Source: Rhodopseudomonas sp. BR0M22
GTDB lineage: Bacteria > Pseudomonadota > Alphaproteobacteria > Rhizobiales > Xanthobacteraceae
Length of the DNA: 41,554 bases
Assembly (NCBI RefSeq): GCF_010907035.1
Contig: NZ_QUMK01000051.1
Coordinates: 1 to 41,554 of the forward strand
Reading direction: 5' to 3'
The translations under genes were made by a program, and so were the position numbers. Every line of letters begins with the position of its first letter. Position 1 is the stretch's first letter. This document shows, one piece after another, positions 6,621 through 29,567 of this stretch. Below the pieces are notes generated by a model. That model saw only the letters and a program-made list of their open reading frames with translations. It ran no database searches and was not told the DNA's origin.

Positions 6621-6650
6621 AGTCCGGGGTCTCCTCCCCCAAAGCGCACC

Positions 6651-9268: not shown

Positions 9269-9395
9269 TGTGTCGAATAGGTTGACGCAAGTTGTTGAAG
9301 AATTAGTCAAGCCTGCCAAACACACCGATGTCGCGCGGGATGGTTAACGACTCCTGAACCCCGGCAAGATACAGTCCTTTCAAGACGTTGAAGCC

Positions 9396-11647: not shown

Positions 11648-11810
11648 GGAATCCCGATAGCATCTTCATCAGCTGTTAAGCATATCGTCCGGCGTTGCAG
11701 TGAGATCGCAACGCTTGTTGGCTTGCGTTCAGCCAAACAGAAGAGAAGTGAAAGGGCTGTGGAGGATAACGAGCTTGGACCCATTTTGACCACGGCAGCC
11801 ACATCACATC

Positions 11811-13226: not shown

Positions 13227-13953
13227 AGATCACATTTCCGAACAAGTAGCGTCGCCATAGGCGCCGCGGCTCGACCGCGAGCCGAAACACCCATTCGCAT
13301 CGCAATTTTCTGACCCACAATGGTGCGCGCGGCCGGTGCTTGGAAAGAAAGTCAAAGAGACCGCCGACACAGATGATCGGGACACCAGTGAACGTCGTGC
13401 TGAACTTCTCGGCCCACTTTTCTTGGTAAGGCGTCCCCATGCCGACCAAGATGAAGTCGGCCCCTGAGGCACGGATGATCGAATAGAGCTCCGCGGGATC
13501 ACCGGCATCGAAAAATCCGTGATGCGACCCGACATATTGGTGCTGCGGGGCGATGGCCTTCAGCACCTCCAATGCACGTTCAGCAATGCCCGGGATCCCT
13601 CCCAGGGCAAAGATACGGAATATTCGGCCAGTCTCCTTGAGATATTGCGGCACAAAATCGGTGCCCTGCAAGTTGTCTGGAAAGTCGGAATGATAGAGAA
13701 GACGAGAAGATAATCCGATACCAATGCCATCGTTCAACACCAGGCTGCGGTCGAGAGCTCGCTTCAGAGAAGGGTCTTTTGCAGCGATGTTCGACACGTT
13801 CGCATTGAGGAACGTCACGAGTGGAGTTTCGCTGGTGCTGAAATGCTCGTCGATGGCCAGAATTGCGTCACGGCGAGTTGCAACCAAAACCTGGATTCCA
13901 AGAATGTTACGCCGTGATCGCATAGAATCGGTGTCCGACGCGCCACGAATCAT
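13156..13953 (-). CDS. WecG/TagA/CpsF-family glycosyltransferase (GT26)
   Basis: 265 residues. Family landmarks are in order: TPLVTFLNANVSNIA, VLNDGIGIGLSSRLL with the catalytic Asp of the NDG motif, GTDFVP, IFALGGIPGIAERAL, YVGSHHGFF, ADFILVGMGTPYQEKWAEK, ICVGGLFDFLS and a C-terminal amphipathic tail EWVFRLAVEPRRLWRRYLFG that attaches to the membrane. Members transfer N-acetylmannosamine, ManNAcA or glucose-type sugars onto lipid-linked intermediates. It starts at 13953; an internal ATG at 13923 is possible. The gene diverges from the methyltransferase and converges with wzx. Confidence 0.9.
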   Translation of the reverse strand: MIRGASDTDSMRSRRNILGIQVLVATRRDAILAIDEHFSTSETPLVTFLNANVSNIAAKDPSLKRALDRSLVLNDGIGIGLSSRLLYHSDFPDNLQGTDFVPQYLKETGRIFRIFALGGIPGIAERALEVLKAIAPQHQYVGSHHGFFDAGDPAELYSIIRASGADFILVGMGTPYQEKWAEKFSTTFTGVPIICVGGLFDFLSKHRPRAPLWVRKLRCEWVFRLAVEPRRLWRRYLFGNVIFIARLAKAYVRGGRVSGDRQETM

Positions 13954-15244: not shown

Positions 15245-16552
15245 TCAGATATCAAGGGTAGTCGCGCGCTCCCATTCGGTGAATTGAGCGCTGTAGTTAT
15301 TCCAGTCATTCCGCTTGAGATTGAGATAGGCTTCGGAGAATTCCGTCCCAAGCGCGGCCTTCAGCGCGTCGTCCTTGTCAAACGCGCGCAGCGCGTCGAG
15401 CAGGTTGAGCGGCAACCGCGGCGCGTCCTTGACGGTGTGGCCGAGCGCGTACATGTCGATGTCGAGCCGTTTGCCCGGATCGGCCTTCGAGGCGATGCCG
15501 CTCAGTCCGACTGCGATCACCACCGCCTGCAGCAGATAGGGATTGACGGCGCCGTCCGGCAGGCGGAGTTCGAACCGTCCCTTGCCGGGTACGCGCACCA
15601 TGTGGGTGCGGTTGTTGCCGGTCCAGGTCACTGTGTTCGGCGACCAGGTCGCTCCCGACATCGTGCGTGGCGCGTTGATACGCTTGTAGCTGTTCACCGT
15701 CGGATTGGTAATGGCGGCGATCGCCTCGGCGTGCTTCATGATTCCGCCGAGGAAGTGATAGCCCTGCTGCGACAGCCCCATCTCGTCGGACTCGTCGTGG
15801 AATTTGTTGGTGGTGCCGCTCTCGTCCCACACCGAGACGTGGATATGGCAGCCGGACCCGGTGAGATTCGGAAACGGCTTCGGCATGAAGGTCGCGCGCA
15901 GCCCGTGCTTTTCCGCGACCGAGCGCACCATGAACTTGAAGAACGAGTGCCGGTCGGCGGTGATCAGCGCGTCGTCGAATGCCCAGTTCATTTCGAACTG
16001 GCCGTTGGCGTCCTCATGATCGTTCTGATACGGCTTCCAGCCGAGTTCCTGCATATGATCGCAGATCTCCGCGATCACGTCGTAGCGTCGCATCAGCGCC
16101 AGCTGGTCGTAGCAGGGCTTGCTCGCATTGTCCTTTCCATCGGAGATCACCGCGCCGTCGGGATCGATCAGGAAGAACTCGGCCTCGACACCGGTCTTGA
16201 CGCGCAACCCCTGCCCGGCCGCTGCGGCGACCATGTTCTTCAGGATCGTGCGCGGCGCCTGCAGCACCGGCTTGTTCTCCATGACACAGTCGGCCGCAAC
16301 CCACGCCACCTCCTTGCGCCATGGTAACTGCACCACTGCCGCCGCGTCCGGCATCGCGAACAGATCCGGATGCGCCGGCGTCATGTCGAGCCAAGTGGCG
16401 AAGCCGGCGAACCCGGCGCCGTCCTGCTGCATCTCTGCGATCGCCGAAGCCGGCACCAGCTTGGCACGCTGGACTCCGAACAGATCGGTGTAGGAGATCA
16501 TGAAGTAGCGAATGCCGCGGTCTTTCGCGAGGGACGCCAGATCTTCGGACAC
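15245..16552 (-). CDS. gmaS: Gamma-glutamylmethylamide synthetase (GlnT-type glutamine synthetase homologue)
   Basis: 435 residues starting at GTG (MSEDLASLAKDRGIRYFMIS) with an AGAGAAAG ribosome site. The family is GlnT/GmaS in the glutamine synthetase superfamily, in which methylamine plus glutamate plus ATP gives gamma-glutamylmethylamide. Visible are TGVEAEFFLID (metal-binding Glu), ANGQFEMNW, FPNLTGSGCHIHVSVWD, the ATP-site region NPTVNSYKRINAPRTMSGAT and the Arg-rich GNNRTHMVRVPGKGRFELRL. Adjacency to mgsABC and mgdABCD favours GmaS over plain glutamine synthetase; glutamine synthesis cannot be excluded from sequence alone. It is last in the mgsA-B-C-gmaS operon, 36 bp after mgsC. Confidence 0.85.
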   Translation of the reverse strand: MSEDLASLAKDRGIRYFMISYTDLFGVQRAKLVPASAIAEMQQDGAGFAGFATWLDMTPAHPDLFAMPDAAAVVQLPWRKEVAWVAADCVMENKPVLQAPRTILKNMVAAAAGQGLRVKTGVEAEFFLIDPDGAVISDGKDNASKPCYDQLALMRRYDVIAEICDHMQELGWKPYQNDHEDANGQFEMNWAFDDALITADRHSFFKFMVRSVAEKHGLRATFMPKPFPNLTGSGCHIHVSVWDESGTTNKFHDESDEMGLSQQGYHFLGGIMKHAEAIAAITNPTVNSYKRINAPRTMSGATWSPNTVTWTGNNRTHMVRVPGKGRFELRLPDGAVNPYLLQAVVIAVGLSGIASKADPGKRLDIDMYALGHTVKDAPRLPLNLLDALRAFDKDDALKAALGTEFSEAYLNLKRNDWNNYSAQFTEWERATTLDI

Positions 16553-16588
16553 GACGCTTTCTCTTTCGTTGGCTGTTGACGACAGTCG

Positions 16589-17917
16589 TTAGAGCCGGTC
16601 GCGCCCTGGGATCCAGTCGGTCCCGGCGAGTGGCACGCGTGCCATCGCAGCGGCTTCGAGGGTGAGAGCGCACAGATCCTCGGGCTCGAGATTGTGCACA
16701 TGATTGTGACCGCAGGCGCGGGCGATGGTCTGCGCCTCCAGTGTCATGACTTTGAGGTAGTTGGCGAGGCGGCGCCCGGCCAGCACGGGATCGAGCCGTG
16801 CCATCAGGTCGGGATCCTGAGTGGTGATGCCGGCCGGATCCTTGCCCTCGTGCCAATCGTCGTAGGCGCCCGCGGTCGTCCCGAGCTTCTGATAATCCGC
16901 TTCGCGCAGCGGGTCGTTGTCGCCGAGCGCGACCAGCGCTGCGGTGCCGATCGACACCGCATCGGCGCCGAGCGCCAGTGCCTTGGCGACGTCAGCGCCG
17001 TTGCGGATGCCGCCGGACACGATCAGTTGCACCTTGCGATGCATGCCGAGATCCTGCAGTGCCTGCACCGCTGGACGGATGCAGGCCAGCGTCGGCATGC
17101 CGACATGCTCGATGAAGACTTCCTGGGTGGCGGCCGTGCCGCCCTGCATGCCGTCAAGCACCACGACGTCGGCCCCCGACTTCACCGCCAGTGCCACGTC
17201 GTAATAGGGCCGCGCACCGCCGACCTTGATGAAGATCGGCTTCTGCCAGTCGGTGATCTCGCGCAGTTCGAGGATCTTGATCTCGAGGTCGTCGGGCCCG
17301 GTCCAGTCCGGATGCCGCGACGCCGAGCGCTGATCGATGCCCTTGGGCAGCGTCCGCATCTCGGCGACGCGGTCGGTGATCTTCTGGCCGAGCAGCATGC
17401 CGCCGCCGCCGGGCTTGGCGCCCTGCCCGATCACGATCTCGATCGCGTCGGCCTTCAGCAGGTCTTCCGGATTCATGCCGTAGCGCGACGGCAGATACTG
17501 ATACACCAGCGTCTGCGACTGGCCGCGCTCTTCCGTCGACATGCCCCCGTCGCCGGTGGTGGTCGAGGTGCCGGCGATAGTCGCGCCGCGCCCCAGCGCC
17601 TCTTTGGCGTTAGCCGACAGCGAGCCGAAGCTCATCCCGGCGATGGTGATCGGGATCTTCAGATGCAGCGGCTTCTTGGCGTAGCGCGAGCCGAGAACGA
17701 CGTCGGTATCGCAGCGCTCGCGGTAGCCTTCGAGCGGATAGCGCGACATCGAGGCGCCGAGAAACAGCAGATCGTCGAAATGCGGAACCCGCCGTTTCGC
17801 GCCTGCGCCGCGAATGTCGTAGATGCCGGTGGTCGCCGCACGGCGGATTTCGGACAGCGTGTAGTCGTCGAAGGTGTGCGACTTGCGAGGAGTGGTCGGA
17901 GGATTTGTGTAGGACAT
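16589..17917 (-). CDS. mgsC: N-methylglutamate synthase subunit C (FMN glutamate synthase-like, GlxD type)
   Basis: 442 residues. The glutamate-synthase alpha-barrel carries FMN: ITIAGMSFGSLSANAKEALG, TSTTTGDGGMSTEERGQSQ, IEIVIGQGAKPGGGGMLLGQ, IFIKVGGARPYYDVALAVKS, VVVLDGMQGGTAATQEVF and LIVSGGIRNGADVAKALALG. It lacks the ferredoxin and NADPH domains of full-length GltB/GltD. With MgsA and MgsB it forms N-methylglutamate synthase, which transfers the methylamino group to give N-methylglutamate. The homologue in rhizobia is named GlxD. It lies 51 bp after mgsB and 36 bp before gmaS. Confidence 0.87.
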   Translation of the reverse strand: MSYTNPPTTPRKSHTFDDYTLSEIRRAATTGIYDIRGAGAKRRVPHFDDLLFLGASMSRYPLEGYRERCDTDVVLGSRYAKKPLHLKIPITIAGMSFGSLSANAKEALGRGATIAGTSTTTGDGGMSTEERGQSQTLVYQYLPSRYGMNPEDLLKADAIEIVIGQGAKPGGGGMLLGQKITDRVAEMRTLPKGIDQRSASRHPDWTGPDDLEIKILELREITDWQKPIFIKVGGARPYYDVALAVKSGADVVVLDGMQGGTAATQEVFIEHVGMPTLACIRPAVQALQDLGMHRKVQLIVSGGIRNGADVAKALALGADAVSIGTAALVALGDNDPLREADYQKLGTTAGAYDDWHEGKDPAGITTQDPDLMARLDPVLAGRRLANYLKVMTLEAQTIARACGHNHVHNLEPEDLCALTLEAAAMARVPLAGTDWIPGRDRL

Positions 17918-17968
17918 TACGAAAGCCGCGCTGATGACAATGGACTGGGGGAATGATGGATTGAACGA

Positions 17969-18658
17969 CTAACCGTAGGCGTCCGCGTGATCGACGTTGA
18001 AAGTGTAGAGCTTGCGCGCCGATCCATAGCGCTTGAACTCCTCGGCTTTGACATCCGTGATGCCGGCCCGCGCCAATAATTTGCCGACGATCTCGATATG
18101 CTCGGGCCGCATCGGCTTCTCGATGCAGTCGGCGCCGAGGCTCTTGACCTTGCCGCGCACGAACAGCCGTGCCTCGTAGATCGAGTCGCCGAGCGCATCA
18201 CCGGCGTCGCCGCAAACCACGAGGTTGCCGGCCTGGGCCATGAACGCCGACATGTGCCCGATATTGCCCTTCACGACGATGTCGATGCCCTTCATCGAGA
18301 TACCGCAGCGCGACGAGGCGTTGCCTTCGATCACCAGCAAGCCGCCGTGGCCGGTCGCGCCGGCATATTGGCTGGCGTCGCCTTTGACGACGACTTCACC
18401 GGACATCATGTTCTCGGCGACGCCCGGCCCGACCGAACCGTGAACGGTGACCTTGGCCTGCCGGTTCATGCCGGCGCAGTAATAGCCGAGGCTGCCGCGG
18501 ATTGTGATGTCGACCGGCGCGTTGACGCCGACCGCCACCGCGTGCGATCCGCGCGGGTTGACGATTTCCCACTGCGTTTCGTTGGTGCCCGCACTGAGCT
18601 GATGCAGCGCCTGATTGAGCGCGCGCAGATCGGTTGCCGCGAGATCGACTGTCGGCAT
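17969..18658 (-). CDS. mgsB: N-methylglutamate synthase subunit B (GXGXG domain, GlxC type)
   Basis: 229 residues from MPTVDLAATD. The protein is the GXGXG right-handed beta-helix domain found at the C-terminus of glutamate synthase, here as a separate subunit. The visible repeats are DITIRGSLGYYCAGMNRQAK, VTVHGSVGPGVAENMMSGEV, VVKGDASQYAGATGHGGLLV and IVVKGNIGHMSAFMAQAGNL. It links the amidotransferase and FMN subunits of the complex and should help channel the amine. The start lies 2 bp after the mgsA stop, so translation is probably coupled. Confidence 0.87.
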   Translation of the reverse strand: MPTVDLAATDLRALNQALHQLSAGTNETQWEIVNPRGSHAVAVGVNAPVDITIRGSLGYYCAGMNRQAKVTVHGSVGPGVAENMMSGEVVVKGDASQYAGATGHGGLLVIEGNASSRCGISMKGIDIVVKGNIGHMSAFMAQAGNLVVCGDAGDALGDSIYEARLFVRGKVKSLGADCIEKPMRPEHIEIVGKLLARAGITDVKAEEFKRYGSARKLYTFNVDHADAYG

Positions 18659-18660
18659 GT

Positions 18661-19554
18661 TCAACGTCCCCAAAAATACACGGTGGCCGGCTCGGGCTCC
18701 CACACCTTCGCGTCATCGATGCCGGGCAGCCCGACCAGCGCGCGATATTCGGAGCCGAAGGCGACGTATCGATCGGTCTCGGCGAGCACCGCCGGCTTGC
18801 AGGCGATTGGGTCGCGCAGCACCCCGAACCCGTCTCGGGTGCCGACGACGAAGGTGTAGAAGCCGTCCAGGTCCCCGAGGCTTTTCTGCAGCGCGTCGCC
18901 GAGACTGAGGCCGCCGGCCATCTGCGCTGTGAGATAGGCCGCCGCGACCTCGGAGTCGTTTTCGGTCTCGAAGGTCATGCCCTCGCGCTTGAGCTCGCGG
19001 CGCAGATTGTTGTGGTTCGACAACGAGCCGTTGTGGACCAGGCATTGGTCGCTTCCGGTCGAGAACGGATGCGCGCCCATCGTGGTCACCGCCGACTCCG
19101 TCGCCATGCGGGTATGGCCGATGCCGTGACTGCCTTGCATCCCGGCCAAGCCGAACCGGTCGGCGACGCTGGTCGGGTAGCCGACCTCCTTGTAGATCTC
19201 GATGCGCTCGCCGACGCCCATCACCCGTAGATGCGGATAGCGTTCGCGCAGCAGCTTGCGGGCCGCGCCAGCCAGAGCGGCATCGAGGCGAAGCACCGCG
19301 TGAGTATCACGCACGGTCATGCCGACCTTGCCACCCAGCGCCTCGCCGAGGGCGACGTCGAGTCCCGCAAATGCCGAAGGGTCCGGCGACTGCAGCGTGA
19401 TCTTGCAAAGCCCGGATTCGTCGGCGCCGTAGACTGCGAAGCCTGCACTGTCCGGGCCGCGGTCGCACATCGTCGACAACATCTCGGCGAGCAGTTCGCC
19501 GAGCTGCGGCTCGAGCGCCTTGTCCTTGATGAAAAGACCGACAATCCCGCACAT
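18661..19554 (-). CDS. mgsA: N-methylglutamate synthase subunit A (class II glutamine amidotransferase, GlxB type)
   Basis: 297 residues from MCGIVGLFIKD. Cys2, exposed after Met removal, is the N-terminal nucleophile of class II (Ntn) amidotransferases. Other conserved parts are MLSTMCDRGPDSAGFAVYG, SHGIGHTRMATES, CLVHNGSLSNHNNLRREL and FETENDSEVAAAYL. It would hydrolyse gamma-glutamylmethylamide, freeing methylamine for the MgsC site, instead of glutamine. In-frame sequence upstream to 19632 is excluded because it would hide the nucleophile; GGGAGTGG upstream of the ATG is the ribosome site. First gene of the operon, divergent from the XRE-cupin regulator. Confidence 0.9.
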   Translation of the reverse strand: MCGIVGLFIKDKALEPQLGELLAEMLSTMCDRGPDSAGFAVYGADESGLCKITLQSPDPSAFAGLDVALGEALGGKVGMTVRDTHAVLRLDAALAGAARKLLRERYPHLRVMGVGERIEIYKEVGYPTSVADRFGLAGMQGSHGIGHTRMATESAVTTMGAHPFSTGSDQCLVHNGSLSNHNNLRRELKREGMTFETENDSEVAAAYLTAQMAGGLSLGDALQKSLGDLDGFYTFVVGTRDGFGVLRDPIACKPAVLAETDRYVAFGSEYRALVGLPGIDDAKVWEPEPATVYFWGR

Positions 19555-19641
19555 CGAAGCCCACTCCCGCCGCACGCCATGGTGACGATGCGAAGGAGTC
19601 CTAACAGGCCTCGCAGCCGATTTCAATACCAATAAACAAAA

Positions 19642-19656
19642 TTTCCTTATATGAAA
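19642..19656. promoter_or_regulatory. Candidate operator/promoter in the AT-rich mgsA-regulator gap
   Basis: The 229-bp divergent gap between mgsA and the XRE-cupin gene has one strikingly AT-rich patch (19620-19656). It contains the imperfect palindrome TTTCCTTATATGAAA, of which 10 of 15 positions fit two-fold symmetry (TTTC.T...A.GAAA). Its place and its likeness to other XRE-cupin operators suggest a binding site for the adjacent regulator. No footprint or second copy supports this. Confidence 0.35.
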
Positions 19657-19783
19657 CTCGCGCCGCGTGACGGCGGTATCGGTTCGTCCGGGCGCGGCGC
19701 CGTGCTATCGTCGTCTTCGGATTCCGCCGGGTGCACGACAGCGTGACGGATGTCGGAAGTTCGTCCCCAGCGGAGTCGACAGC

Positions 19784-20536
19784 ATGGCCAAGTCACCGAT
19801 CAAGTCATCCCCCAAGAAGCCGGCGTCGAAGGCGGCAGCCAAGCGCGAGGCGACCGACGTCGCCAACTGGAAACGCTCGGACGGCATCAAAGCGCCGCTG
19901 CTCTCCGCCAAGGTGCTCAACAGCCCCGACCCGCACGCGCTCGACCAAACTCGCGATAACATTCTGGAAGTCGCGATCGGCCGCGAGGTGCGCAACTTCC
20001 GCAATCAGCTCGGCATCAACATCTCGGAGCTCGCCGAAGCCGCCGGGATCTCGCTCGGCATGCTGTCCAAGATCGAAAACGGCATGACGTCACCGTCGCT
20101 GACGACGTTGCAGGCGCTGGCGCGCGCGCTCAGCGTTCCGGTCAGCTCGTTCTTCCGCCGATACGAAGAGCGGCGCTCGGTCAGCTTCGTCAAGGCGGGG
20201 GAAGGCCTGGCGATCGAGCGGCGCGGCACCCGCAGTGGCCACCAGTATCACTTGCTCGGCTACAACGGCGACCAGAACTCGCGTCTGGTCGTCGAGCCCT
20301 ACATGATTACGCTGACCAGCGAGTCGGACGTCTTCCCGCTGTTCCAGCATCCCGGCATGGAGTTTCTCTATATGCTCGAAGGCTCGGTGGTGTACCGGCA
20401 CGCGGAGAAGCGCTACACGATGCTGCCCGGCGACAGCCTGTTCTTCGATGCAGACGCCCCGCACGGGCCCGAGCAGATGGTGACGCTGCCGATCCGCTTT
20501 CTGTCGATCATCTGCTACGTCCGCGAGAACGATTGA
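19784..20536 (+). CDS. XRE-family regulator with C-terminal cupin domain
   Basis: 250 residues from the ATG with CGGAG upstream. A Lys/Ala-rich N-terminus (about 1-60) is followed by a lambda-repressor-like HTH at about 65-120 (VRNFRNQLGINISELAEAAG, ISLGMLSKIENGMTSPSLTT). A cupin_2 sensor domain follows at about 160-245, including HPGMEFLYMLEGSVVYRH, YTMLPGDSLFFDADAPHGPE and a final FLSIICYVREND. Members repress amine, amino acid or polyamine catabolic genes and bind a small ligand in the cupin. Its position, divergent from mgsABC-gmaS, points to control of methylamine use. Whether it activates or represses cannot be read. Confidence 0.82.
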   Translation: MAKSPIKSSPKKPASKAAAKREATDVANWKRSDGIKAPLLSAKVLNSPDPHALDQTRDNILEVAIGREVRNFRNQLGINISELAEAAGISLGMLSKIENGMTSPSLTTLQALARALSVPVSSFFRRYEERRSVSFVKAGEGLAIERRGTRSGHQYHLLGYNGDQNSRLVVEPYMITLTSESDVFPLFQHPGMEFLYMLEGSVVYRHAEKRYTMLPGDSLFFDADAPHGPEQMVTLPIRFLSIICYVREND

Positions 20537-20564
20537 GGCGTGCGCCGCGCCGGCCGTACCCCCG

Positions 20565-21590
20565 TTACGTCTCGCCCTCATCGCGCGACGGCGGCGAACC
20601 GCCGGAGAACTGCACACGCTCGTGTCGCGGCGGCAATCCGAACTGCCGGCGATAATGCCGCGTAAAGGTCGACGCGCTGGCAAATCCGGTCGCCACCGCG
20701 ATCTCCCCGATCGACAACGAGGTTTGCCGCAGCAGCCGGCGGGCCTGCTCGAGGCGCAATCGCGCATAGTGCCGCAGGATCGTCGTCCGCAGTTCGTTCC
20801 TGTACAGCCGCTCGAGCTGCCGCAGCGACATCCCGGCGATCTGCGCCAGTTTCGCGCGGCTGAGCGGGGCTTCGATATTGCGCTCCATGTACGCCATCGT
20901 TTCGATCAGCTTCGGGTGGTGGACGCCGAACCGGTCGGTCAGTGAAAGCCGCTGCGCCGCCTCGCCGCGCCGGACGTCGGTCTGCAGGAACCAGTCGCTG
21001 ACGGCGGCCGCAAGTGCGGATCCGTGATCGAGCCGGATCAGCGCGTGCATCATGTCGAGCGCCGCGATGCCGCCAGCGCAAGTGAAGCGGTCGCGATCGA
21101 TCTCAAACAGCGAATGGCTGAGCCGAAGAAATGGAAACGTCTCGGCGAAAGCCGGGATGTGCTCCCAATGCACGGTGCAGCGATAGCCGTCGAGCAGACC
21201 TGCCTGGGCGAGCAGAAACGGGCCGGCCGAGACGCCGCCGAGCCGCACGCCGTGACGCGCAGCCTTGCGCAGGAATGCCAGTGTCGGCGCATGCTGGAAG
21301 CTCTGCGGATTGCCGCCGGCGCACACCACGATCATGTCGAGTCGCCCGGCCTCGGAAGCGGTCACGTCGGCTTCGATGCGGACGCCGTTCGACGCCGTCA
21401 CACCGGAGCCCTGCAGGGCGAGGTGGCGCCAGCGATACAGCGTCCGGCCGGCCAGCGCGTTGGCGGCGCGCAGCGGCTCGATCGCGGACGCGTAGGACAT
21501 CAGCGCAAAACCAGGGACGAGCAGAAACCCGACGCGCAGCGGCCGTTGCGTTTTGTCGCTCACGGTCAATTTTTGGTCGTTTCTTGCCAT
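20565..21590 (-). CDS. glxA: GlxA-type AraC regulator (DJ-1/PfpI plus AraC HTH)
   Basis: 341 residues from MARNDQKLTVSDK. An N-terminal class I glutamine-amidotransferase-like (DJ-1/PfpI) sensor covers about residues 19-190 (LRVGFLLVPGFALMSYASAI, DMIVVCAGGNPQSFQH, VRLGGVSAGPFLLAQAGLLD). The usual catalytic Cys is replaced by Ser in GVSAGPF, so it senses rather than hydrolyses. An AraC HTH pair occupies about 230-330 (LAQIAGMSLRQLERLYRNEL; IGEIAVATGFASASTFTRHY). The related regulators GbdR and SouR respond to methylated amines and sarcosine. Divergent from mgdA over 60 bp. A perfect 9-bp dyad includes its start codon, suggesting autoregulation. The XRE-cupin gene converges with it. Confidence 0.85.
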   Translation of the reverse strand: MARNDQKLTVSDKTQRPLRVGFLLVPGFALMSYASAIEPLRAANALAGRTLYRWRHLALQGSGVTASNGVRIEADVTASEAGRLDMIVVCAGGNPQSFQHAPTLAFLRKAARHGVRLGGVSAGPFLLAQAGLLDGYRCTVHWEHIPAFAETFPFLRLSHSLFEIDRDRFTCAGGIAALDMMHALIRLDHGSALAAAVSDWFLQTDVRRGEAAQRLSLTDRFGVHHPKLIETMAYMERNIEAPLSRAKLAQIAGMSLRQLERLYRNELRTTILRHYARLRLEQARRLLRQTSLSIGEIAVATGFASASTFTRHYRRQFGLPPRHERVQFSGGSPPSRDEGET

Positions 21591-21615
21591 CCGCTGGGAT
21601 GGATAGCAGCGGATG
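21588..21615. promoter_or_regulatory. Perfect 9-bp inverted repeat over the glxA start codon
   Basis: CATCCGCTG at 21588-21596 and CAGCGGATG at 21607-21615 are exact inverted repeats separated by 10 bp. On the minus strand the final ATG of the repeat is the glxA start codon. The repeat could be a dimeric operator for the AraC protein, controlling both glxA and mgdA. It could instead form an RNA hairpin in the glxA mRNA that buries the start codon. Confidence 0.55.
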
Positions 21616-21650
21616 CTCCACGCGACAAGTTGCACGAAACGGCGGTCCCG

Positions 21651-22901
21651 ATGCGCTACTCGCTTTTCGCCCTCGCCCGCGAAGCCTTCCGCAGCCATCG
21701 CGGCTGGCAACCGGTCTGGCGCGATGCCGCGCCGCGCCCGCACTACGACGTGATCATCGTCGGCGGCGGCGGTCACGGCCTCGCCACCGCGTATTATCTC
21801 GCCGAGCGCTTCGGCATCCGTAACGTCGCCGTGCTGGAGAAGGGCTGGATCGGCTCCGGCAACGCCGGCCGCAACACCACCATCATCCGCTCCAACTATC
21901 TGCTGCCGGGCAATCAGCCGTTCTACGAACTGTCGATGCAACTCTGGGAAAGCCTGGAGCAGCAGCTCAATTACAATACGATGGTCAGCCAGCGCGGCGT
22001 GCTGAATCTGTTTCATTCGGACGCGCAGCGCGACGCCTTCGCCCGGCGCGGCAACGCGATGCTGCTGTCGGGCGCGGACGCCGAACTGCTCGACGCGGAC
22101 GACGTGCGGCGAATGCTGCCGCTGCTCGACTTCGACAACGCCAGGTTTCCGATCAAGGGCGGCCTGCTGCAGCGCCGCGGCGGCACCGCGCGGCACGATG
22201 CCGTGGTGTGGGGCTATGCGCGCGGCGCCAGCGAGCTCGGCGTCGACATCGTCCAGAATTGCGAGGTCACCGGCTTCGTCCGCGACGGCGACCGCGTCGT
22301 CGGGGTCGAGACCAGCCGCGGGCGGATCGGCTGCGGCTCGGTCGGCCTGGCGGTGGCGGGCAGCTCCTCGCGCGTCGCCAAAATGCTCGGGCTGAGGCTC
22401 CCGATCGAAAGCCACCTGATCCAGGCATTCGTCTCCGAGGGTATTAAGCCGCTGATTCCGGGCGTCGTTACTTTCGGCGCCGGGCACTTCTACATCAGCC
22501 AGTCCGACAAAGGCGGCCTGGTGTTCGGCGGCGACATCGACGGCTACAACTCCTACGCCCAGCGCGGCAATCTGCCGGTGATCGAAGACGTTTGCGAAGG
22601 AGGCATGGCGCTGATGCCGTCGATCGGCCGAGTGCGCATCCTGCGCAACTGGGCGGGGCTGCTCGACATGTCGATGGACGGCTCGCCGATCATCGACCGC
22701 GCTCCGATCGAAGGCGTCTACCTCAACGCCGGCTGGTGCTACGGCGGGTTCAAGGCGACGCCCGCCTCGGGCCTTTGCTTCGCACATCTGATCGCCAATG
22801 GCTCGAGCCACCCGGTCGCGACCGAACTCCGCCTCGATCGTTTCGCGGCCGGGCACCTGATCGACGAAAAGGGCCGTGGCGCCCAACCCAATTTGCATTG
22901 A
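21651..22901 (+). CDS. mgdA: N-methylglutamate dehydrogenase subunit A (SoxB/sarcosine oxidase beta-like)
   Basis: 416 residues from MRYSLFALAREAFRSHRGW, the typical start of SoxB-type beta subunits. The FAD dinucleotide-binding motif VIIVGGGGHGLATAYYL is at residues 34-50. Further family landmarks are KGWIGSGNAGRNTTIIRSNY, LLQRRGGTARHDAVVWGYAR (the His of this segment aligns with the covalent-FMN region of heterotetrameric sarcosine oxidase), DMSMDGSPIIDRAPIEGVYL and GWCYGGFKATPASG. The subunit oxidises the N-methyl group of N-methylglutamate at the FAD. The ribosome site is weak. First gene of mgdABCD-purU, divergent from glxA. Confidence 0.88.
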   Translation: MRYSLFALAREAFRSHRGWQPVWRDAAPRPHYDVIIVGGGGHGLATAYYLAERFGIRNVAVLEKGWIGSGNAGRNTTIIRSNYLLPGNQPFYELSMQLWESLEQQLNYNTMVSQRGVLNLFHSDAQRDAFARRGNAMLLSGADAELLDADDVRRMLPLLDFDNARFPIKGGLLQRRGGTARHDAVVWGYARGASELGVDIVQNCEVTGFVRDGDRVVGVETSRGRIGCGSVGLAVAGSSSRVAKMLGLRLPIESHLIQAFVSEGIKPLIPGVVTFGAGHFYISQSDKGGLVFGGDIDGYNSYAQRGNLPVIEDVCEGGMALMPSIGRVRILRNWAGLLDMSMDGSPIIDRAPIEGVYLNAGWCYGGFKATPASGLCFAHLIANGSSHPVATELRLDRFAAGHLIDEKGRGAQPNLH

Positions 22902-22910
22902 GAAGCAACC

Positions 22911-23171
22911 ATGCGGATCAACTGTCCCTATTGCGGCGAGCGCGACCTCGGCGAGTTCGTGTACTTCGGCGACCCGGTGCCGCGCCCAGATCCCTCCGCA
23001 GCCGATGCGGCGCAGCGCTTCCACGACTCGGTCTATCTGCGCGACAACCCGGCAGGACCGCATCAGGAACTCTGGTACCATGCCTACGGTTGCCGCGGCT
23101 GGCTGCGCGTCACGCGCGACACCCGCACTCATGCTATGCTCGGTAGCGCATTCGCGAGTGACCCAGCATGA
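22911..23171 (+). CDS. mgdB: N-methylglutamate dehydrogenase subunit B (SoxD/sarcosine oxidase delta-like)
   Basis: 86 residues. The small delta subunit binds structural zinc. The probable ligands are Cys5 and Cys8 in CPYC, and His57 and Cys61 in WYHAYGCRGWL, matching the SoxD arrangement. Length is normal for the family (about 85-110 aa). It starts 9 bp after the mgdA stop, and its own stop overlaps the mgdC start as ATGA, so the subunits are translationally coupled. Confidence 0.88.
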   Translation: MRINCPYCGERDLGEFVYFGDPVPRPDPSAADAAQRFHDSVYLRDNPAGPHQELWYHAYGCRGWLRVTRDTRTHAMLGSAFASDPA

Positions 23172-26161
23172 GCGGCGCGGCGCATGAGGTAGCAGCAGCG
23201 CGGCTGGCGGCTGGCGGCCTGATCGATCGCTCGCAGCCGATGTCGTTCGCGTTCGACGGAACGACCTACCAGGGCTTTGCGGGCGACACGCTGGCCTCGG
23301 CGCTGCTCGCGAACCGCGTCACGCTGGTCGGCCGGTCGTTCAAATATCACCGGCCGCGCGGGATCTTCACCGCCGGGGCCGAAGAACCGAACGCATTGGT
23401 CGAATTGCGCGAGGACGCGCGGCGGGAGCCCAACACCAGAGCGACGACGGTCGAATTGTTCGACGGGTTGAAGGCGCACAGCCAGAACCGCTGGCCGTCG
23501 CTGGCATTCGATGTGACTTCGGTGAATTCGCTGCTGTCGCCGCTGCTCGCCGCCGGGTTCTACTACAAGACCTTCATGTGGCCGGCCTCGTTCTGGGAGA
23601 AAATCTACGAGCCGGCGATCCGTCGTGCCGCCGGCCTCGGCCGCGCCAGCGGCCAGGCTGATCCGGACGGCTACGACAAATGCCACGCCTTCTGCGACCT
23701 GCTGGTGATCGGCGGTGGCGCGGCAGGACTGATGGCGGCACTGGCCGCCGGGCGCGCGGGCGTGCGCGTCATTCTCTGCGACGACGACTTTGCGATCGGC
23801 GGACGCTTGAACGGCGACGTCCGCGACATCGCGGGCCGCAGCGGCGCACAGTGGGCCGCGAACGTGGCCGCCGAATTGCGAGCATTGCCGACCGTGCGAA
23901 TGCTGCGCCGGACCACGGTGTTCGGCGTCTATGACGGCGGCACCTATGGCGCCCTGGAACGCGTCGGCGACCATCTTGCTGTGCCGGCGCCGCATCAGCC
24001 GCGGCAGCGTTACTGGAAAATCGTCGCCCGCCGCAGCGTGCTGGCCGGCGGAGCGCTCGAGCGACCGATCGTGTTCGGCGGCAACGACCGCCCCGGCGTG
24101 ATGGTCGCGTCCGCAGTGCGGACCTATCTCAACCGGTTCGCGGTCGCGCCCGGCCGCCGCTGCGCAGTATTCACCTGCAACGACGACGCATGGACAACGG
24201 CGTTCGACCTGGTGCGTGCCGGCGTCGACGTCGCCGCGATCGTCGACAGTCGGAAGGAAATTTCGCCGCAGCTGATCGCCAGGGCGCAGGAGGCGCAGAT
24301 TCCGGTGATGCCGGGAGCCGAAGTGATCGACACCAGCGGCCGGCTCCGTCTCGACGGCATCACGGTTCGGGACGTTGCGGGACGGATCAGCCGGCACGCG
24401 ATCGACCTGCTTGCAGTCTCCGGCGGATGGAGCGCCAATCTCGGGCTGACGACGCATCTCGGCAGCCGCCCGGAATGGTCCGATGCACTGGCGAGCTTCG
24501 TGCCCGGCACGTTGCCGCCTGGGATGGCGGCGGTCGGTGCCGCCGCCGGACGCTTCGGTCTGAGCGACGCGCTCCGCGACGGCGCGGCGGCGGGTGCCGC
24601 TGCGGCCGAGGCGGCAGGCTTCACGCCGTCGTCTGTCGATGTTCCTGTGACCGATGCCGAGCCCACCGGCATCACACCGATCTGGCATGTCGCCTCGTCG
24701 CGATCCAAGGCGTTCGTCGATCTGCAGAACGACGTTACCAGCGACGACGTCGCATTGGCGGCGCGGGAAGGCTTCAAGTCAGTCGAGCTGCTGAAGCGCT
24801 ACACGACGCTCGGCATGGCCACCGACCAAGGCAAGACCTCCAACGTCAATGGTCAGGCGATCATGGCCCGACTGACGGGCCGCTCGATGGCGCAGGTCGG
24901 AACCACGATGTTCCGGCCGCCTCATGTGCCGGTCGCGATCGCCGCCTTCGCAGGCCATCACCGCGGCCAGCGGTTTCGACCGACGCGCCGCACCGCCGGC
25001 CACCATTGGGCCGAGCAGCAGGGCGCGAGCTTCGTCGAGGCCGGACAGTGGCTGCGCGCTCAATGGTTCGCGCGAGCCGGCGAAACCGACTGGCTGCAGA
25101 TTGTTGGGCGGGAGGTTCGGGCTGCGCGCGATAATGTTGGTGTCTGCGATGTCTCGACGCTCGGCAAGATCGACGTCCAGGGCAGCGACGCCGGTATTTT
25201 TCTCGACCGGATCTACGCCAACACGTTCTCAACCCTGCCGGTCGGCAAGGTGCGCTACGGCTTGATGCTGCGCGAGGACGGCATCGCTTTCGACGACGGT
25301 ACCTGTGCACGGTTCGCCGACGATCATTTCATGATGTCGACGACCACCGCCAACGCCGGTGCGGTGATGCAGCATCTCGAGCACGCCCGCCAGGTGCTGT
25401 GGCCGCAGCTCGACGTCCAGCTCGTCTCGGTCACCGAACAATGGGCGCAATACGCCGTCGCCGGCCCGCGCTCGCGCGACCTTCTCGAGCGGCTGCTCGG
25501 CGGCTCGATCGACCTGTCCGACGCCGCGCTGCCGTATCTCGGTTGCGCCGAATTCGTCTGGTGCGGAGTTACCGCGCGGATCTACAGGGTGTCGTTCTCC
25601 GGCGAACTCGCCTACGAATTTGCCGTCCCGGCGCAGTTCGGCGATGCCGCAATCCGGGCTCTGATGCAGGCCGGCGCCGCCTTCGGCGCGGTGCCCTACG
25701 GCACGGAGGCCCTCGGCGTGATGCGGATCGAGAAAGGGCACGTCGCCGGCAACGAACTCAACGGTACCACCACCGCCGCCGATCTCGGGCTGGGACGGAT
25801 GATGTCGCGGAAGAAGGACTTCATCGGCCGCGTGCTGGCGGAGCGACCCGGGCTGATCGCCGCCGACCGCCCCGCCCTGGTCGGCATTGTTCCAGTCGAT
25901 CGCTCGCAGCGGCTGCGCGCAGGCGCGCATTTCCTCGGGATCGGCGCGGCACCGACGATGGCGAACGACGAGGGCTACGTCACGTCGGTGGCGTTCTCGC
26001 CGATGTGCGGCCACTGGATCGGACTGGGCTTTTTGAGACACGGCCCACAGCGGATCGGCCAGCGCGTGCGCGCCTACGACCCGCTGCGCCGCGGCGACAC
26101 CGAGGTCGAGATCGTCGCTCCTGTCTTCTTCGATCCGGAAGGAGAACGGCTTCATGGATGA
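23168..26161 (+). CDS. mgdC: N-methylglutamate dehydrogenase subunit C (SoxA/sarcosine oxidase alpha-like)
   Basis: 997 residues. Domains in order: an N-terminal 2Fe-2S-ferredoxin-like fold without cluster cysteines (about 15-110, FAFDGTTYQGFAGDTLASAL, GRSFKYHRPRGIFTAG); an NAD/FAD two-dinucleotide domain (about 175-470, LLVIGGGAAGLMAALAAGRA); a short linker; and a C-terminal GCV_T/aminomethyltransferase domain that binds tetrahydrofolate (about 600-990, IYRVSFSGELAYEFAVPAQF, YGTEALGVMRIEKGHVAGNE). The folate domain captures the released formaldehyde as 5,10-methylene-THF. The length equals sarcosine oxidase alpha. It overlaps mgdB by 4 bp and mgdD by 8 bp. Distinguishing it from true sarcosine oxidase rests on the mgs-gmaS neighbours. 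Confidence 0.88.
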   Translation: MSGAAHEVAAARLAAGGLIDRSQPMSFAFDGTTYQGFAGDTLASALLANRVTLVGRSFKYHRPRGIFTAGAEEPNALVELREDARREPNTRATTVELFDGLKAHSQNRWPSLAFDVTSVNSLLSPLLAAGFYYKTFMWPASFWEKIYEPAIRRAAGLGRASGQADPDGYDKCHAFCDLLVIGGGAAGLMAALAAGRAGVRVILCDDDFAIGGRLNGDVRDIAGRSGAQWAANVAAELRALPTVRMLRRTTVFGVYDGGTYGALERVGDHLAVPAPHQPRQRYWKIVARRSVLAGGALERPIVFGGNDRPGVMVASAVRTYLNRFAVAPGRRCAVFTCNDDAWTTAFDLVRAGVDVAAIVDSRKEISPQLIARAQEAQIPVMPGAEVIDTSGRLRLDGITVRDVAGRISRHAIDLLAVSGGWSANLGLTTHLGSRPEWSDALASFVPGTLPPGMAAVGAAAGRFGLSDALRDGAAAGAAAAEAAGFTPSSVDVPVTDAEPTGITPIWHVASSRSKAFVDLQNDVTSDDVALAAREGFKSVELLKRYTTLGMATDQGKTSNVNGQAIMARLTGRSMAQVGTTMFRPPHVPVAIAAFAGHHRGQRFRPTRRTAGHHWAEQQGASFVEAGQWLRAQWFARAGETDWLQIVGREVRAARDNVGVCDVSTLGKIDVQGSDAGIFLDRIYANTFSTLPVGKVRYGLMLREDGIAFDDGTCARFADDHFMMSTTTANAGAVMQHLEHARQVLWPQLDVQLVSVTEQWAQYAVAGPRSRDLLERLLGGSIDLSDAALPYLGCAEFVWCGVTARIYRVSFSGELAYEFAVPAQFGDAAIRALMQAGAAFGAVPYGTEALGVMRIEKGHVAGNELNGTTTAADLGLGRMMSRKKDFIGRVLAERPGLIAADRPALVGIVPVDRSQRLRAGAHFLGIGAAPTMANDEGYVTSVAFSPMCGHWIGLGFLRHGPQRIGQRVRAYDPLRRGDTEVEIVAPVFFDPEGERLHG

Positions 26162-26786
26162 GCTCGCCGCGCAGCCGGCTTCGGCATCGTTCGTGCCGCC
26201 CCGATCGGCCTCGGGCGACGGCGTCGTCATAACCGAACGCCAGAATCTCACGCTGGCGACCTTGCAGACTCGCCGCGGTCAGCACGCCGCGCTGCGTGCC
26301 CGCGTCGCCGCCCGATTCCACGTCGATCTGCCGCAGCGGCCGGCGGTCGGCCGCACCCAATCGGTGTCCTTCGTCGGCGTCGGACCCGAAACCTGGCTGG
26401 TGATCGCCCCGGACGGAGGGCCGTCATTCGTCCGCTCGCTCAAGGCCGACGTCGCCGGGCTAGCGTCGGTATCGGATCAGAGCGGCGGTCACGCGATCTT
26501 TCGAGTCGGCGGACGCGCGGTCGGGGCGACCCTCGCCAAGCTCGTTCCAATCGATCTCGATCCTGCCGCGTTCAAGGTCGGCGACGCCGCCACCACGGTC
26601 GCCGCCCATGTCGGAGTCACGCTGTGGCGCTGTCCCGACGGGCTCGACGGCGAGCAGGTCTTCGAACTCAGCGTGTTCCGTAGCCTCGCCGGTAGCTTCC
26701 TCGAATGCTTCTGGGACAGCGCTGCGGAATTCGGCTGCCGCTGGGATGCGCAGCCCCCGCGAGCCTCCACCTCTCCCTCCCGCTGA
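26154..26786 (+). CDS. mgdD: N-methylglutamate dehydrogenase subunit D (SoxG/sarcosine oxidase gamma-like)
   Basis: 210 residues; a second ATG four bases later in another frame is ignored. The protein has the SoxG pattern: [96 protein letters not shown] and [17 protein letters not shown]. It completes the four-subunit enzyme and contributes to the folate-binding region. It overlaps mgdC by 8 bp, indicating coupled translation, and is followed 14 bp later by purU. Confidence 0.87.
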
Positions 26787-26800
26787 GCCCGATTCTCCTC

Positions 26801-27658
26801 ATGTCCAACGACAGCTACATCCTCACCTCGTCCTGCCCGAACCGGCCCGGCATCGTCGCGGCCGTGGCGCGCCTCCTGTTCGAAAACGGCGGCAACATCC
26901 AGGAAGCGCATCAATACGACGACATCGAAAGCAATCAGTTTTTCGCCCGCATCCGCTTCAACTTCATGGACGGCGCGATCGAGCCGTTCGAACAGGCGTT
27001 CGCGCCGCTGGCGAACGAGCTACAGATGCGCTGGACGCTGCGCGCACGTTCGCAAAAGATGCGCGTCCTGATCATGACCTCGCGCTCCGATCATTGTCTG
27101 GCGGATCTGTTGTATCGCTGGCGGATCGGCGAGCTGGCGATCGATCTCGCCGGCATCGTCTCCAACCACCCGCGCGAGACCTATCTGCACCACGACCTGA
27201 CCGGCATCGCGTTCGACTATCTACCGGTGACGGCGCAGACCAAGGCGCAGCAGGAGGCCGAGGTCTGGAAGATCATCCAGGAGCGCAACGTCGATCTGGT
27301 GATCCTGGCGCGCTACATGCAGATCCTCTCGAACGACCTCTCCACCAAGCTGGCCGGACGCTGCATCAACATCCATCATTCGTTCCTGCCGGGCTTCAAG
27401 GGCGCGCGCCCGTATCACCAGGCACACAGCCGCGGCGTCAAACTGATCGGCGCGACCGCGCACTATGTCACCGCGGATCTCGACGAAGGACCGATCATCG
27501 AACAGGACGTCGAGCGCATTTCCCACCAGGACCGGCCCGACGATCTGGTCCGCAAGGGCCGCGACATCGAGCGCCGCGTGCTGGGACGCGCCGTATTCTG
27601 GCACACCGAAGGCCGCGTCATTCCCAACGGCGTCAAGACCGTTGTGTTCAGGGACTGA
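26801..27658 (+). CDS. purU: Formyltetrahydrofolate deformylase PurU
   Basis: 285 residues from [19 protein letters not shown]. An N-terminal ACT domain (about 1-80) precedes a formyltransferase-fold domain (about 90-280). Motifs are [32 protein letters not shown] (catalytic Asn/His region) and [19 protein letters not shown] with the catalytic Asp. It hydrolyses 10-formyl-THF to formate and THF. In this operon it would drain C1 units coming from N-methylglutamate oxidation, regenerating THF for MgdC and giving formate for oxidation. An upstream in-frame start at 26705 would overlap mgdD and has no ribosome site. Confidence 0.9.
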
Positions 27659-28094: not shown

Positions 28095-28820
28095 ATGATC
28101 AGCGGCGATTATGGGCGCGACGCCTTGGACTTCATTGAAGGCCTCTCTGGCCTCACGACACTCACAGAAGCATTCCAGGCGATTGAATCCGGATTCGGCG
28201 CCTTCGGCTTCGAGACCATTATCATCACAGCTCTCCCCAACCACCATCAGCGGTTCTCGCAGATGGTGATGGCGAAGCGCTGGCCGGACGAGTGGTTCAG
28301 ACTCTACACGCAAAGGAATTATGACCGCTTCGACCCAGTCGTCAGACATCTGCGACAGACGATCAATCCCTTCGAATGGTCGGAAGCGCCGTATCATCGC
28401 GAAGACGATCGGCGGGCTGCGGAGGTCATGGACCGCGCGGCCGACTTCAGGATGGTCCGCGGCTTCATCGTCCCGATCCACGGCCTTGCCGGCTACGAAG
28501 CCGCCATCTCATTCGGCGGATCGAATATCGAGCTCAACTCCCGCACAAAGCCTTTGCTGCATCTGATGGCGATGTACGCCTTTGATCGCATTCGGACTCT
28601 GGCCGCGCCGGCGCCGCCAGGGCCAAGACTGACGCATCGGGAACGTGAAGCGCTGATCTGGACCGCGCGAGGGAAGTCTGCGTGGGAGATCGGCGAAATC
28701 CTGAGCATTGCGCAACGCACCGCCGAAGAGCACATCTCCACGGCCGGACGAAAGCTGGGCGCCGCGAACAAAACCCACGCCGTCGCCATCGCCATTCGTC
28801 AGAATTTGATCGTTCCCTAG
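28095..28820 (+). CDS. LuxR-family acyl-homoserine lactone receptor (BjaR-like)
   Basis: 241 residues. The autoinducer-binding domain (about 20-165) has the family ligand-pocket residues: WPDEWFRLYTQRNYDRFDPV (Trp, Tyr, Asp, Pro), NPFEW, and GFIVPIHGLAGYEAAISFGG. The C-terminal GerE-type HTH (about 175-235) reads LTHREREALIWTARGKSAWE, then IGEILSIAQRTAEEHISTAG. Conserved Asp and Trp positions of AHL receptors are present, so it is not a solo with a divergent pocket. It sits 84 bp upstream of luxI on the same strand, where TGGGA-TTTT-TCCCA forms a weak hairpin at 28833-28846. No clear 20-bp lux box was found. Confidence 0.88.
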   Translation: MISGDYGRDALDFIEGLSGLTTLTEAFQAIESGFGAFGFETIIITALPNHHQRFSQMVMAKRWPDEWFRLYTQRNYDRFDPVVRHLRQTINPFEWSEAPYHREDDRRAAEVMDRAADFRMVRGFIVPIHGLAGYEAAISFGGSNIELNSRTKPLLHLMAMYAFDRIRTLAAPAPPGPRLTHREREALIWTARGKSAWEIGEILSIAQRTAEEHISTAGRKLGAANKTHAVAIAIRQNLIVP

Positions 28821-28904
28821 CGCGAACGACACTGGGATTTTTCCCAATATCGATACTGCGATTGTTGTTCGACATTCCACTTCGCTCATCCAGGGGAGGT
28901 GGAA

Positions 28905-29567
28905 ATGATTCATGTAATTTCGGCGAGCAACCGCCATCTATACCAGGACGCTATCGAGCAACACTTCCAGATCCGACACGAGATCTTCGTCGAAGAGCGC
29001 GGGTGGAAAACACTCGCGCGACCGGACGGCCGCGAAATCGATCAATATGACGACGACGATACGATCTATTTGCTGGCCATGGACGAAGGGAGAGTCATCG
29101 GAGGGCACCGCCTCTACCCCACCACGAAGCCCACCATGATCGGCGAAGTATTCCCTCACCTCGCGACCGTCGGCGGCTGCCCATCGGCGCCGGATATTTG
29201 GGAGTGGTCGCGGTATTTCATTGTTCCCGAGCGGCGGGACAGCGATTTGAACCTTCGCCTGATGGCTGCCGTTCAGGAGTTCGGCCTGGATGAAGGGATC
29301 TCGCAAGTCAGCGCGGTTATCGAGATGTGGTGGCTGCCACGCTTTCAGCAGGCGGGTTTCGCCTTGAAACCTCTCGGCGTCCCGGCACTGGTGGAGAACG
29401 CCTGGACGATCGCGACACTGATCGACATCAGCGAAAGCGCCCTGTCGACCGTTCAAACAATGATCGGCGAAGCCGGCGTGTTGAAGCGTCGTGGCCCGCA
29501 GCGCCGGCATGTGGCGCATTCCGAGCAGCTGCGGTCAAATCCTGCCGAGCACTTACTTCTGGCATGA
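28905..29567 (+). CDS. LuxI-family acyl-homoserine lactone synthase (BjaI-like)
   Basis: 220 residues from the ATG with an excellent AGGGGAGG ribosome site; a GTG two codons earlier is possible. With this start the conserved LuxI residues fall at canonical positions: Arg24, Phe28 and Trp34 (RHEIFVEERGW), Asp46 and Asp49 (IDQYD), Arg69, and Glu100 and Arg103 (WEWSR). The sequence is closest, from memory, to Bradyrhizobium BjaI, which makes isovaleryl-HSL from isovaleryl-CoA. It differs from R. palustris RpaI (p-coumaroyl-HSL). The acyl donor is therefore inferred, not shown. Confidence 0.9.
   Translation: MIHVISASNRHLYQDAIEQHFQIRHEIFVEERGWKTLARPDGREIDQYDDDDTIYLLAMDEGRVIGGHRLYPTTKPTMIGEVFPHLATVGGCPSAPDIWEWSRYFIVPERRDSDLNLRLMAAVQEFGLDEGISQVSAVIEMWWLPRFQQAGFALKPLGVPALVENAWTIATLIDISESALSTVQTMIGEAGVLKRRGPQRRHVAHSEQLRSNPAEHLLLA

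Follow-up and report, generated by a model that had tools for sequence, protein, structure and literature searches.

The window analysed here is a 41,554-nucleotide stretch of DNA from Rhodopseudomonas sp. BR0M22 (contig NZ_QUMK01000051.1), and the locus at positions 15245–27658 is, in our reading of the sequence, almost certainly a complete N-methylglutamate (NMG) pathway. The initial annotation had placed gmaS, mgsABC, mgdABCD, and purU here together with an XRE-cupin gene and a GlxA-type AraC gene, and every one of these genes was found intact at its place. The gmaS, mgsABC, and mgdABCD genes that define an NMG pathway locus are thus all present, and the locus is composed as follows (FMN, flavin mononucleotide; starts marked ~ were read off translations of the open frames).

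15245–16552, minus strand: gmaS, gamma-glutamylmethylamide synthetase (TIGR03105, 669.5 bits against a cut-off of 469.6)
16589–17917, minus strand: mgsC, FMN-binding N-methylglutamate synthase subunit (PF01645, Glu_synthase, 295 bits)
17969–18703, minus strand, probable ATG start at ~18658: mgsB, GXGXG subunit (PF01493, 34.9 bits against a cut-off of 32.5)
18661–~19554, minus strand, open frame to 19632: mgsA, class II glutamine amidotransferase-type subunit (PF13522, 72.9 bits)
~19784–20536, plus strand, open frame from 19667: PuuR-like XRE-cupin regulator, xre (PF01381, HTH_3; PF07883, Cupin_2)
20565–~21590, minus strand, start uncertain: GlxA-type AraC regulator, araC (PF01965, DJ-1/PfpI; PF12833, HTH_18)
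21651–22901, plus strand: mgdA, N-methylglutamate dehydrogenase flavin subunit of the SoxB type (TIGR01373, 674.8 bits)
22911–23171, plus strand: mgdB, SoxD-type subunit (PF04267, 97.5 bits; aligns with 2gag_D)
23168–26161, plus strand: mgdC, SoxA-type subunit with a folate-binding GcvT domain (TIGR01372, 1393 bits against 1164; PF01571)
26154–26786, plus strand: mgdD, SoxG-type subunit (PF04268, 32.0 bits against a cut-off of 21)
~26801–27658, plus strand, open frame from 26705: purU, formyltetrahydrofolate deformylase (TIGR00655, 314.9 bits against 285.95)

MgsABC consists of three separate subunits: a class II amidotransferase that starts with Met-Cys-Gly (MCGIVGLF) and thus has the N-terminal cysteine of its class, a GXGXG subunit, and an FMN-binding glutamate-synthase-like subunit. 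The family assignments of the locus passed the curated Pfam thresholds, and those of GmaS, MgdA, MgdC, and PurU passed the NCBIfam ones as well. None of the three Mgs subunits gave an NCBIfam match above the cut-off, and they were assigned by Pfam and by their likeness to other loci; MgsC is 76–89% identical to the MgsC proteins of 10 other NMG loci. In the same NCBIfam search, the XRE-cupin protein matched PRK09943 with 61.9 bits, below the cut-off of that family. The xre and araC genes are convergent to each other. The intergenic gaps from mgdA to purU are 9, −4, −8, and 14 bases, which suggests that these five genes form one operon.

Identity of the synthetase and the dehydrogenase

The solved structure nearest to the GmaS of the window is RhGmaS (7cql), which aligns along the whole length with 636 bits. 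According to an excerpt of PMC7948447, the catalytic residues of RhGmaS are Asp177, Glu186, and Arg312, and the enzyme has Trp300 in place of the Glu-flap glutamate of glutamine synthetase and Ala48 in place of the aspartate of the Asp50' loop. In the alignment with 7cql (RhGmaS numbering), the window protein keeps Asp177, Glu186, and Arg312 and shows the same two replacements of ammonia-dependent glutamine synthetase residues (Asp to Ala48 and Glu to Trp300). The methylamine-pocket residues Lys30, Tyr147, and Asn188 are likewise kept.

Comparisons were made with 61 genomes including the host, of which 16, again including the host, belong to the genus; G-labels denote genomes and L-labels loci. 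A second GmaS-like type, 38–39% identical to that of the window and still above the TIGR03105 cut-off, was seen at L047 and L054 with an XRE-like gene nearby. The gmaS of G007, a member of the genus, matches in two pieces in different frames (L048, 2424–3727), indicating either a broken gene or an assembly error.

Phylogenetic analysis separated MgdA from the sarcosine oxidases. All trees were built by a quick method; SH-aLRT denotes support in the Shimodaira–Hasegawa-like approximate likelihood ratio test. Relatives with less than 40% identity or fewer than 250 residues were left out of the MgdA/SoxB tree, and 28 near-identical or duplicate rows were then removed, reducing 92 rows to 64. The window protein lies inside a clade of 50 rows (SH-aLRT 100, branch 0.85). 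The remaining rows fall outside this clade: both solved tetrameric sarcosine oxidases, four rows of Hyphomicrobium-like type, and a further eight SoxB-like rows that form two groups. The active-site motif follows the same division. The window MgdA has GWCYGGFK, adjoining a conserved lysine, and GW[CN]YGGFK is found in 60 of the 61 mgs-linked MgdA proteins that are at least 60% identical to it (AWNYGGFK in the remaining one). GWGTGG[FW]K is found in all nine relatives of 49–53% identity, taken without an adjoining mgs gene, and in both solved sarcosine oxidases; four matches below 40% identity were set aside in this count. In sarcosine oxidases, this stretch lines the substrate site. The heterotetrameric sarcosine oxidases (2gag and 1vrq) resemble the window enzyme in their homologous alpha, beta, and delta subunits, in the folate domain, and in the conserved positions of a histidine and a lysine, which we take to be the flavin-linking and the active-site residue, respectively. 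They differ in the motif (GWGTGGFK versus GWCYGGFK) and in their branch: the window MgdA neither groups with the beta subunits of these solved enzymes nor carries GWGTGGFK, and its SoxBDAG-like subunits are encoded in an mgs/gmaS locus.

The two halves of the pathway also tend to occur together. GmaS above the cut-off was found in 19 of the 61 genomes and the MgdA motif, searched as DNA, in 26, with both in 17 (Fisher 6e-7 over the 61 genomes, not corrected for kinship). GmaS without the motif was seen in only two genomes, namely G024, where the stretch begins with alanine, and G037, which has the Hyphomicrobium-like type. Within the genus, seven of 16 genomes have both GmaS and the motif, neither occurring without the other, and a full-length SoxA-type protein above the cut-off is present in six of these seven and in none of the other nine; the seventh, the fragmented assembly G007, has only a piece of such a protein.

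The automatic gene names, "sarcosine oxidase" and "type III glutamate--ammonia ligase", fit a different reading, in which the SoxBDAG-like operon encodes a genuine sarcosine oxidase, the GlnT and glutamate-synthase-like genes assimilate ammonia, and their neighbourhood is incidental. We regard this as very improbable, given the position of MgdA outside the branch of the solved enzymes, its different motif, the lack of the ammonia-type residues in GmaS, and the co-occurrence of the two halves in the genus. The initial annotation had likewise set the locus apart from a simple sarcosine oxidase locus, and the residue tests, phylogeny, and co-occurrence support it. Of the outcomes that it had named as contrary, clustering with sarcosine oxidases and a plain glutamine synthetase, neither came about on the sequence side: MgdA falls in its own clade, and GmaS has the residues expected of it.

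Several points weigh against the assignment of the locus to the NMG pathway. The solved sarcosine oxidases served as the root of the MgdA tree, and the program gave a long-branch warning. The 61 MgdA proteins were selected by likeness to that of the window, and many are close kin. MgdA proteins of three Hyphomicrobium-like mgs loci (L049, L062, and L075; 44–45% identical) have a third motif type, GWGTWGFK; hence not every locus of the pathway carries GW[CN]YGGFK. MgdD stays below the NCBIfam cut-off (TIGR01375, 78.8 against 143.95 bits). Finally, nine genomes have the motif without GmaS above the cut-off (9 of the 42 without such a GmaS and 9 of the 26 with the motif). The MgdA-type genes concerned, which carry the diagnostic motif, are those at L194 and L195 and in seven further genomes.

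Because nine of the 42 genomes without GmaS above the cut-off have the motif, an Mgd-type enzyme alone is no proof of methylamine use, and these genomes point to a further role of Mgd-type enzymes. They would also fit the possibility that the Mgd half of the window mainly serves another source of N-methylglutamate or an N-methyl amino acid, methylamine being secondary; breakdown of homarine, an example of such a role, is mentioned in the discussion of PMC13390433, in the part available, on the basis of a paper cited there. For the window we consider this unlikely. Its mgd genes adjoin a complete gmaS–mgs half, among the 16 genomes of the genus neither GmaS nor the motif occurs alone, and some of the nine motif-only genomes are incomplete (G045, 84%; G052, 88%).

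From the gene set, the residues, and the clades, we infer the activities and physiology of the complete NMG pathway as follows. GmaS would join methylamine to glutamate at the expense of ATP, yielding gamma-glutamylmethylamide, from which MgsABC would transfer the methylamine group onto 2-oxoglutarate to give N-methylglutamate. MgdABCD would then oxidize N-methylglutamate to glutamate, passing the methyl carbon to tetrahydrofolate (H4F) as methylene-H4F. After oxidation of the latter to formyl-H4F, PurU would release formate and free the folate. The net result would be delivery of the amine nitrogen as glutamate, with formate as the by-product.

In the sample examined, the MgdA/SoxB active-site motif separates most N-methylglutamate dehydrogenases from sarcosine oxidases. 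It could therefore help to tell apart the two sox operons of SAR11, a question left open in the part of PMC3160333 consulted.

Control elements and gene order

Two conserved elements were found upstream of the two halves.

19617–19658, minus strand: conserved mgs promoter/operator element, AGGAA/TTC half-sites followed by a TTGA −35-like box
21555–21590, plus strand: candidate AraC-like direct repeat at the mgd promoter, two GTC half-sites 21 bases apart

The mgs element (AGGAAAA and TTC half-sites with the TTGA box) was obtained from 87 non-redundant sequences of 99 mgsA upstream regions, with 16.3 nats per sequence against 1.5–1.7 in shuffled sets. It occurs once in the window, between the divergent mgsA and xre genes, at 39.7 bits (next non-overlapping site, 3.4), and at 36.6 bits (next, 3.6) under a model built without the window, G007, and L127; the copy in the window has a degraded right half. 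Five of the 99 regions scored below 5 bits (L134, L054, L048, L131, and L128). The element is generally absent at araC–mgdA (median −2.4 bits, 37 regions), the exceptions being a strong match in L130 (30.6 bits) and partial ones in L136, L120, and L129 (13.8–18.4 bits), so the wiring differs between lineages.

The repeat is common to 33 non-redundant araC–mgdA regions (14.9 nats against 3.2–3.5 in shuffled sets), and two half-sites 21 bases apart are a layout usual for AraC proteins. Its set was restricted to araC-linked upstream regions; a set of all mgdA regions, which mixed operon-internal and araC-linked cases, was dropped. The repeat scores 22.0 bits in the window, at a position overlapping the start annotated for araC. 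Under a model built without the window, G007, and G013 it reached 13.8 bits, just above the best of five shuffled windows (12.8), and we therefore treat 21555–21590 as a fair candidate only. The models for both elements were trained on sets including the window. The controls were lenient, since the shuffles were single-base and run with fewer restarts than the real sets. A sigma-54 (NtrC-type) promoter was also considered and rejected: three sites with at most two mismatches (7719, 13051, and 27306) were found in the window where 7.4 were expected, none of them before mgsA or mgdA.

Pairing of the regulators with these elements is what we infer from the cis elements and the neighbouring genes. 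The XRE-cupin protein, with its HTH_3 and Cupin_2 domains and the conserved element at the neighbouring mgs operon, is most likely a local repressor of mgsABC–gmaS and of its own gene through the shared element at 19617–19658. Because xre and mgsA are divergent, this single element could serve both genes, an autoregulatory design. A section heading of PMC7901475 describes the XRE-cupin proteins of Pseudomonas as repressors that act locally and are highly specialised. The AraC protein would most likely activate mgdABCD–purU through the direct repeat at 21555. It is TmaR-like by its position beside mgd; its identities of 43% and 40% are to the counterparts in L129 and L130 (Rhodobacterales-type, adjoining mgdA), not to TmaR of Ruegeria itself, whose clade is delimited at >44% in the available text of PMC13390433. 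We consider this two-regulator wiring evenly poised between right and wrong.

The Ruegeria system speaks against a full separation of control. According to the part of PMC13390433 consulted, the trimethylamine (TMA)/NMG cluster of Ruegeria pomeroyi DSS-3 resembles the window in having an AraC-type gene next to mgdABCD and a gmaS–mgsABC operon. TmaR, the product of that gene, binds both the gmaS–mgs and the mgd promoters with its DNA-binding domain and activates them, and its deletion lowers both transcripts. It also controls upstream TMA and dimethylamine (DMA) genes, whereas the host genome of the window has no PF11927 match. By analogy, the AraC protein of the window might activate both halves together, with the XRE protein only fine-tuning, an arrangement compatible with the pathway assignment; we rate it as possible, though somewhat improbable. 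Among the 61 loci that have mgdA, 32 share with the window an araC gene that adjoins mgdA and is divergent from it, and under the leave-out model the mgsA–xre region contains the fourth best repeat match of the window (7.0 bits at 19621). However, this value lies within the range of best sites in shuffled windows (5.1–12.8 bits), the best match in that region under the full model is −1.4 bits, and the median score of the repeat across all mgsA upstream regions, −7.5 bits, is little above the −8.7 bits of shuffles. The separate tuning of the two halves, which the initial annotation had proposed, therefore stands in part. Two different conserved elements, each with a clear match in the window at one half only, make it plausible; the weakness of the mgd element in the window and the activation of both promoters by TmaR count against it. 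With two conserved elements at hand, the regulation is directly testable.

The gene order was compared over 102 loci: 20 from relatives, two from plasmids, and 80 from genome records, the last being the best 80 of at least 584 confirmed stretches and leaning towards close kin. In 59 loci an xre gene is situated at most 1.8 kb upstream of mgsA, codirectional in 58 and divergent in one (L107); none was found in that interval in 39 loci, some of which are cut by contig ends, and four have no mgsA match. The divergent orientation of xre in the window is thus unusual. In L057 xre is inverted and further from mgsA, and in G007 it is turned as in the window, ~10 kb from mgsA. L107, from Tianweitania sediminis, shares the araC/mgd order, but its MgdA is 70% identical and its mgs genes belong to a rhizobial clade rather than the Hyphomicrobium-like one. 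Plasmid pRL11 of Rhizobium johnstonii 3841 (L056, RL_RS32550–RL_RS32600) carries the same mgdABCD, divergent GlxA-type AraC gene, XRE-like helix-turn-helix gene, mgsABC, glnT/gmaS, and purU; on the plasmid, xre is codirectional with mgsABC and purU comes after gmaS, whereas in the window xre is inverted and purU comes after mgdD. Downstream, pRL11 has additional DmmA-family, DUF3445, and FAD oxidoreductase genes. XRE and glxA genes are already listed as recurrent in such clusters in the part of PMC7574528 consulted. The kind of locus is thus known, since the set of pathway genes and regulator genes of both types have been described before; particular to the window are the inverted xre on a shared promoter element and mgs–gmaS genes of other ancestry.

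Ancestry of the two halves and metabolic setting

The MgsABC + GmaS tree (73 rows, 30 loci left out) places the window and G007 with L127 beside the Hyphomicrobium set (11 rows, SH-aLRT 98), far from the five other pathway members of the genus. L127, a Xanthobacteraceae metagenome-assembled genome, is the nearest named mgs relative outside the genomes of the genus. Holding the genus together in this tree was rejected by the approximately unbiased (AU) test, carried out on a 45-row subset without L053 and L051, with a log-likelihood lower by 356 and p = 1e-51 for a group chosen after the tree had been seen. The MgdA + MgdC tree unites six members of the genus with a support of 89, or 54 under a simpler model; G007, which this tree does not include, has an MgdA with 93% identity to that of the window. 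Because one tree splits the genus and the other unites it, the synthesis half was probably exchanged, while the oxidation half was kept by the genus.

Four other genomes of the genus (G001, G007, G011, and G013) have a conserved block in the gap between the two NMG halves, located at L185 (3400–11166), L186, L187, and L189. It comprises an ABC transporter, a protein of 146 residues that matched no family, and a third component matching the large subunit of N,N-dimethylformamidase (6lvb, 537 bits). The binding protein of the transporter is UrtA-like, at 336 bits, below the 492.75 of that family. Within the genus, PF20254 proteins are present in all seven genomes that have the NMG pathway and absent from the remaining nine (Fisher 9e-5, uncorrected for kinship). 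The host copy lies elsewhere (C137) and is 40% identical to the block protein, and those of G012 and G002 are also distant (39% and 25%). The link is therefore one of a family, not of one gene, and serves as a lead rather than a claim on the window. Dimethylformamidase and the NMG pathway are known together in Paracoccus aminophilus, according to an excerpt of PMC4543880. We tentatively propose, as a conjecture more doubtful than probable, that NMG loci combine two separately inherited and wired modules: XRE-controlled mgsABC–gmaS with a conserved operator-promoter of its own, here exchanged for a Hyphomicrobium-like version, and AraC-controlled mgdABCD–purU, kept by the genus. On this view, the block in the gap of the related strains would be a module for N,N-dimethylformamidase and amide transport, and the pathway of this phototroph genus might be directed at N-methylated amides instead of free methylamine.

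The genes flanking the locus serve other functions. On the left they are of polysaccharide type. The stretch at 5532–13953 has exopolysaccharide-type genes, including a WecB/TagA/CpsF-family and another glycosyltransferase, together with flippase-like and polymerase-like membrane proteins recognized from reading the translations only. To the right, just downstream of purU, a LuxR-type regulator gene adjoins a LuxI-type autoinducer synthase gene (28095–29567). Among the 15 other genomes of the genus, this stretch has near-full matches of 72% DNA identity in G008 and G009, short matches in eight, and none in five. Neither G008 nor G009 has GmaS above the cut-off, and a search of their LuxR/LuxI-matching regions for the NMG proteins of the window found none.

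The host genome contains two genes of the reaction-centre L/M family, one pyrroloquinoline quinone alcohol dehydrogenase, and four matches to the RuBisCO family, of which two are strong. The reaction-centre genes agree with the photoheterotroph-like host that had been envisaged from the window. A tetrahydromethanopterin-linked formaldehyde route was rejected, Fae being absent from the genome, as was an upstream dimethylamine route, in view of the absence of PF11927, which we take to be part of dimethylamine monooxygenase. If methylamine served as a carbon source as well, its carbon would need to be routed through folate and formate. In a host with reaction-centre and RuBisCO genes and without Fae and PF11927, the use of methylamine as a nitrogen source, which would follow from the pathway, is the safe prediction. 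With this locus, what is very probably a complete NMG pathway is placed in a genus that carries reaction-centre genes.

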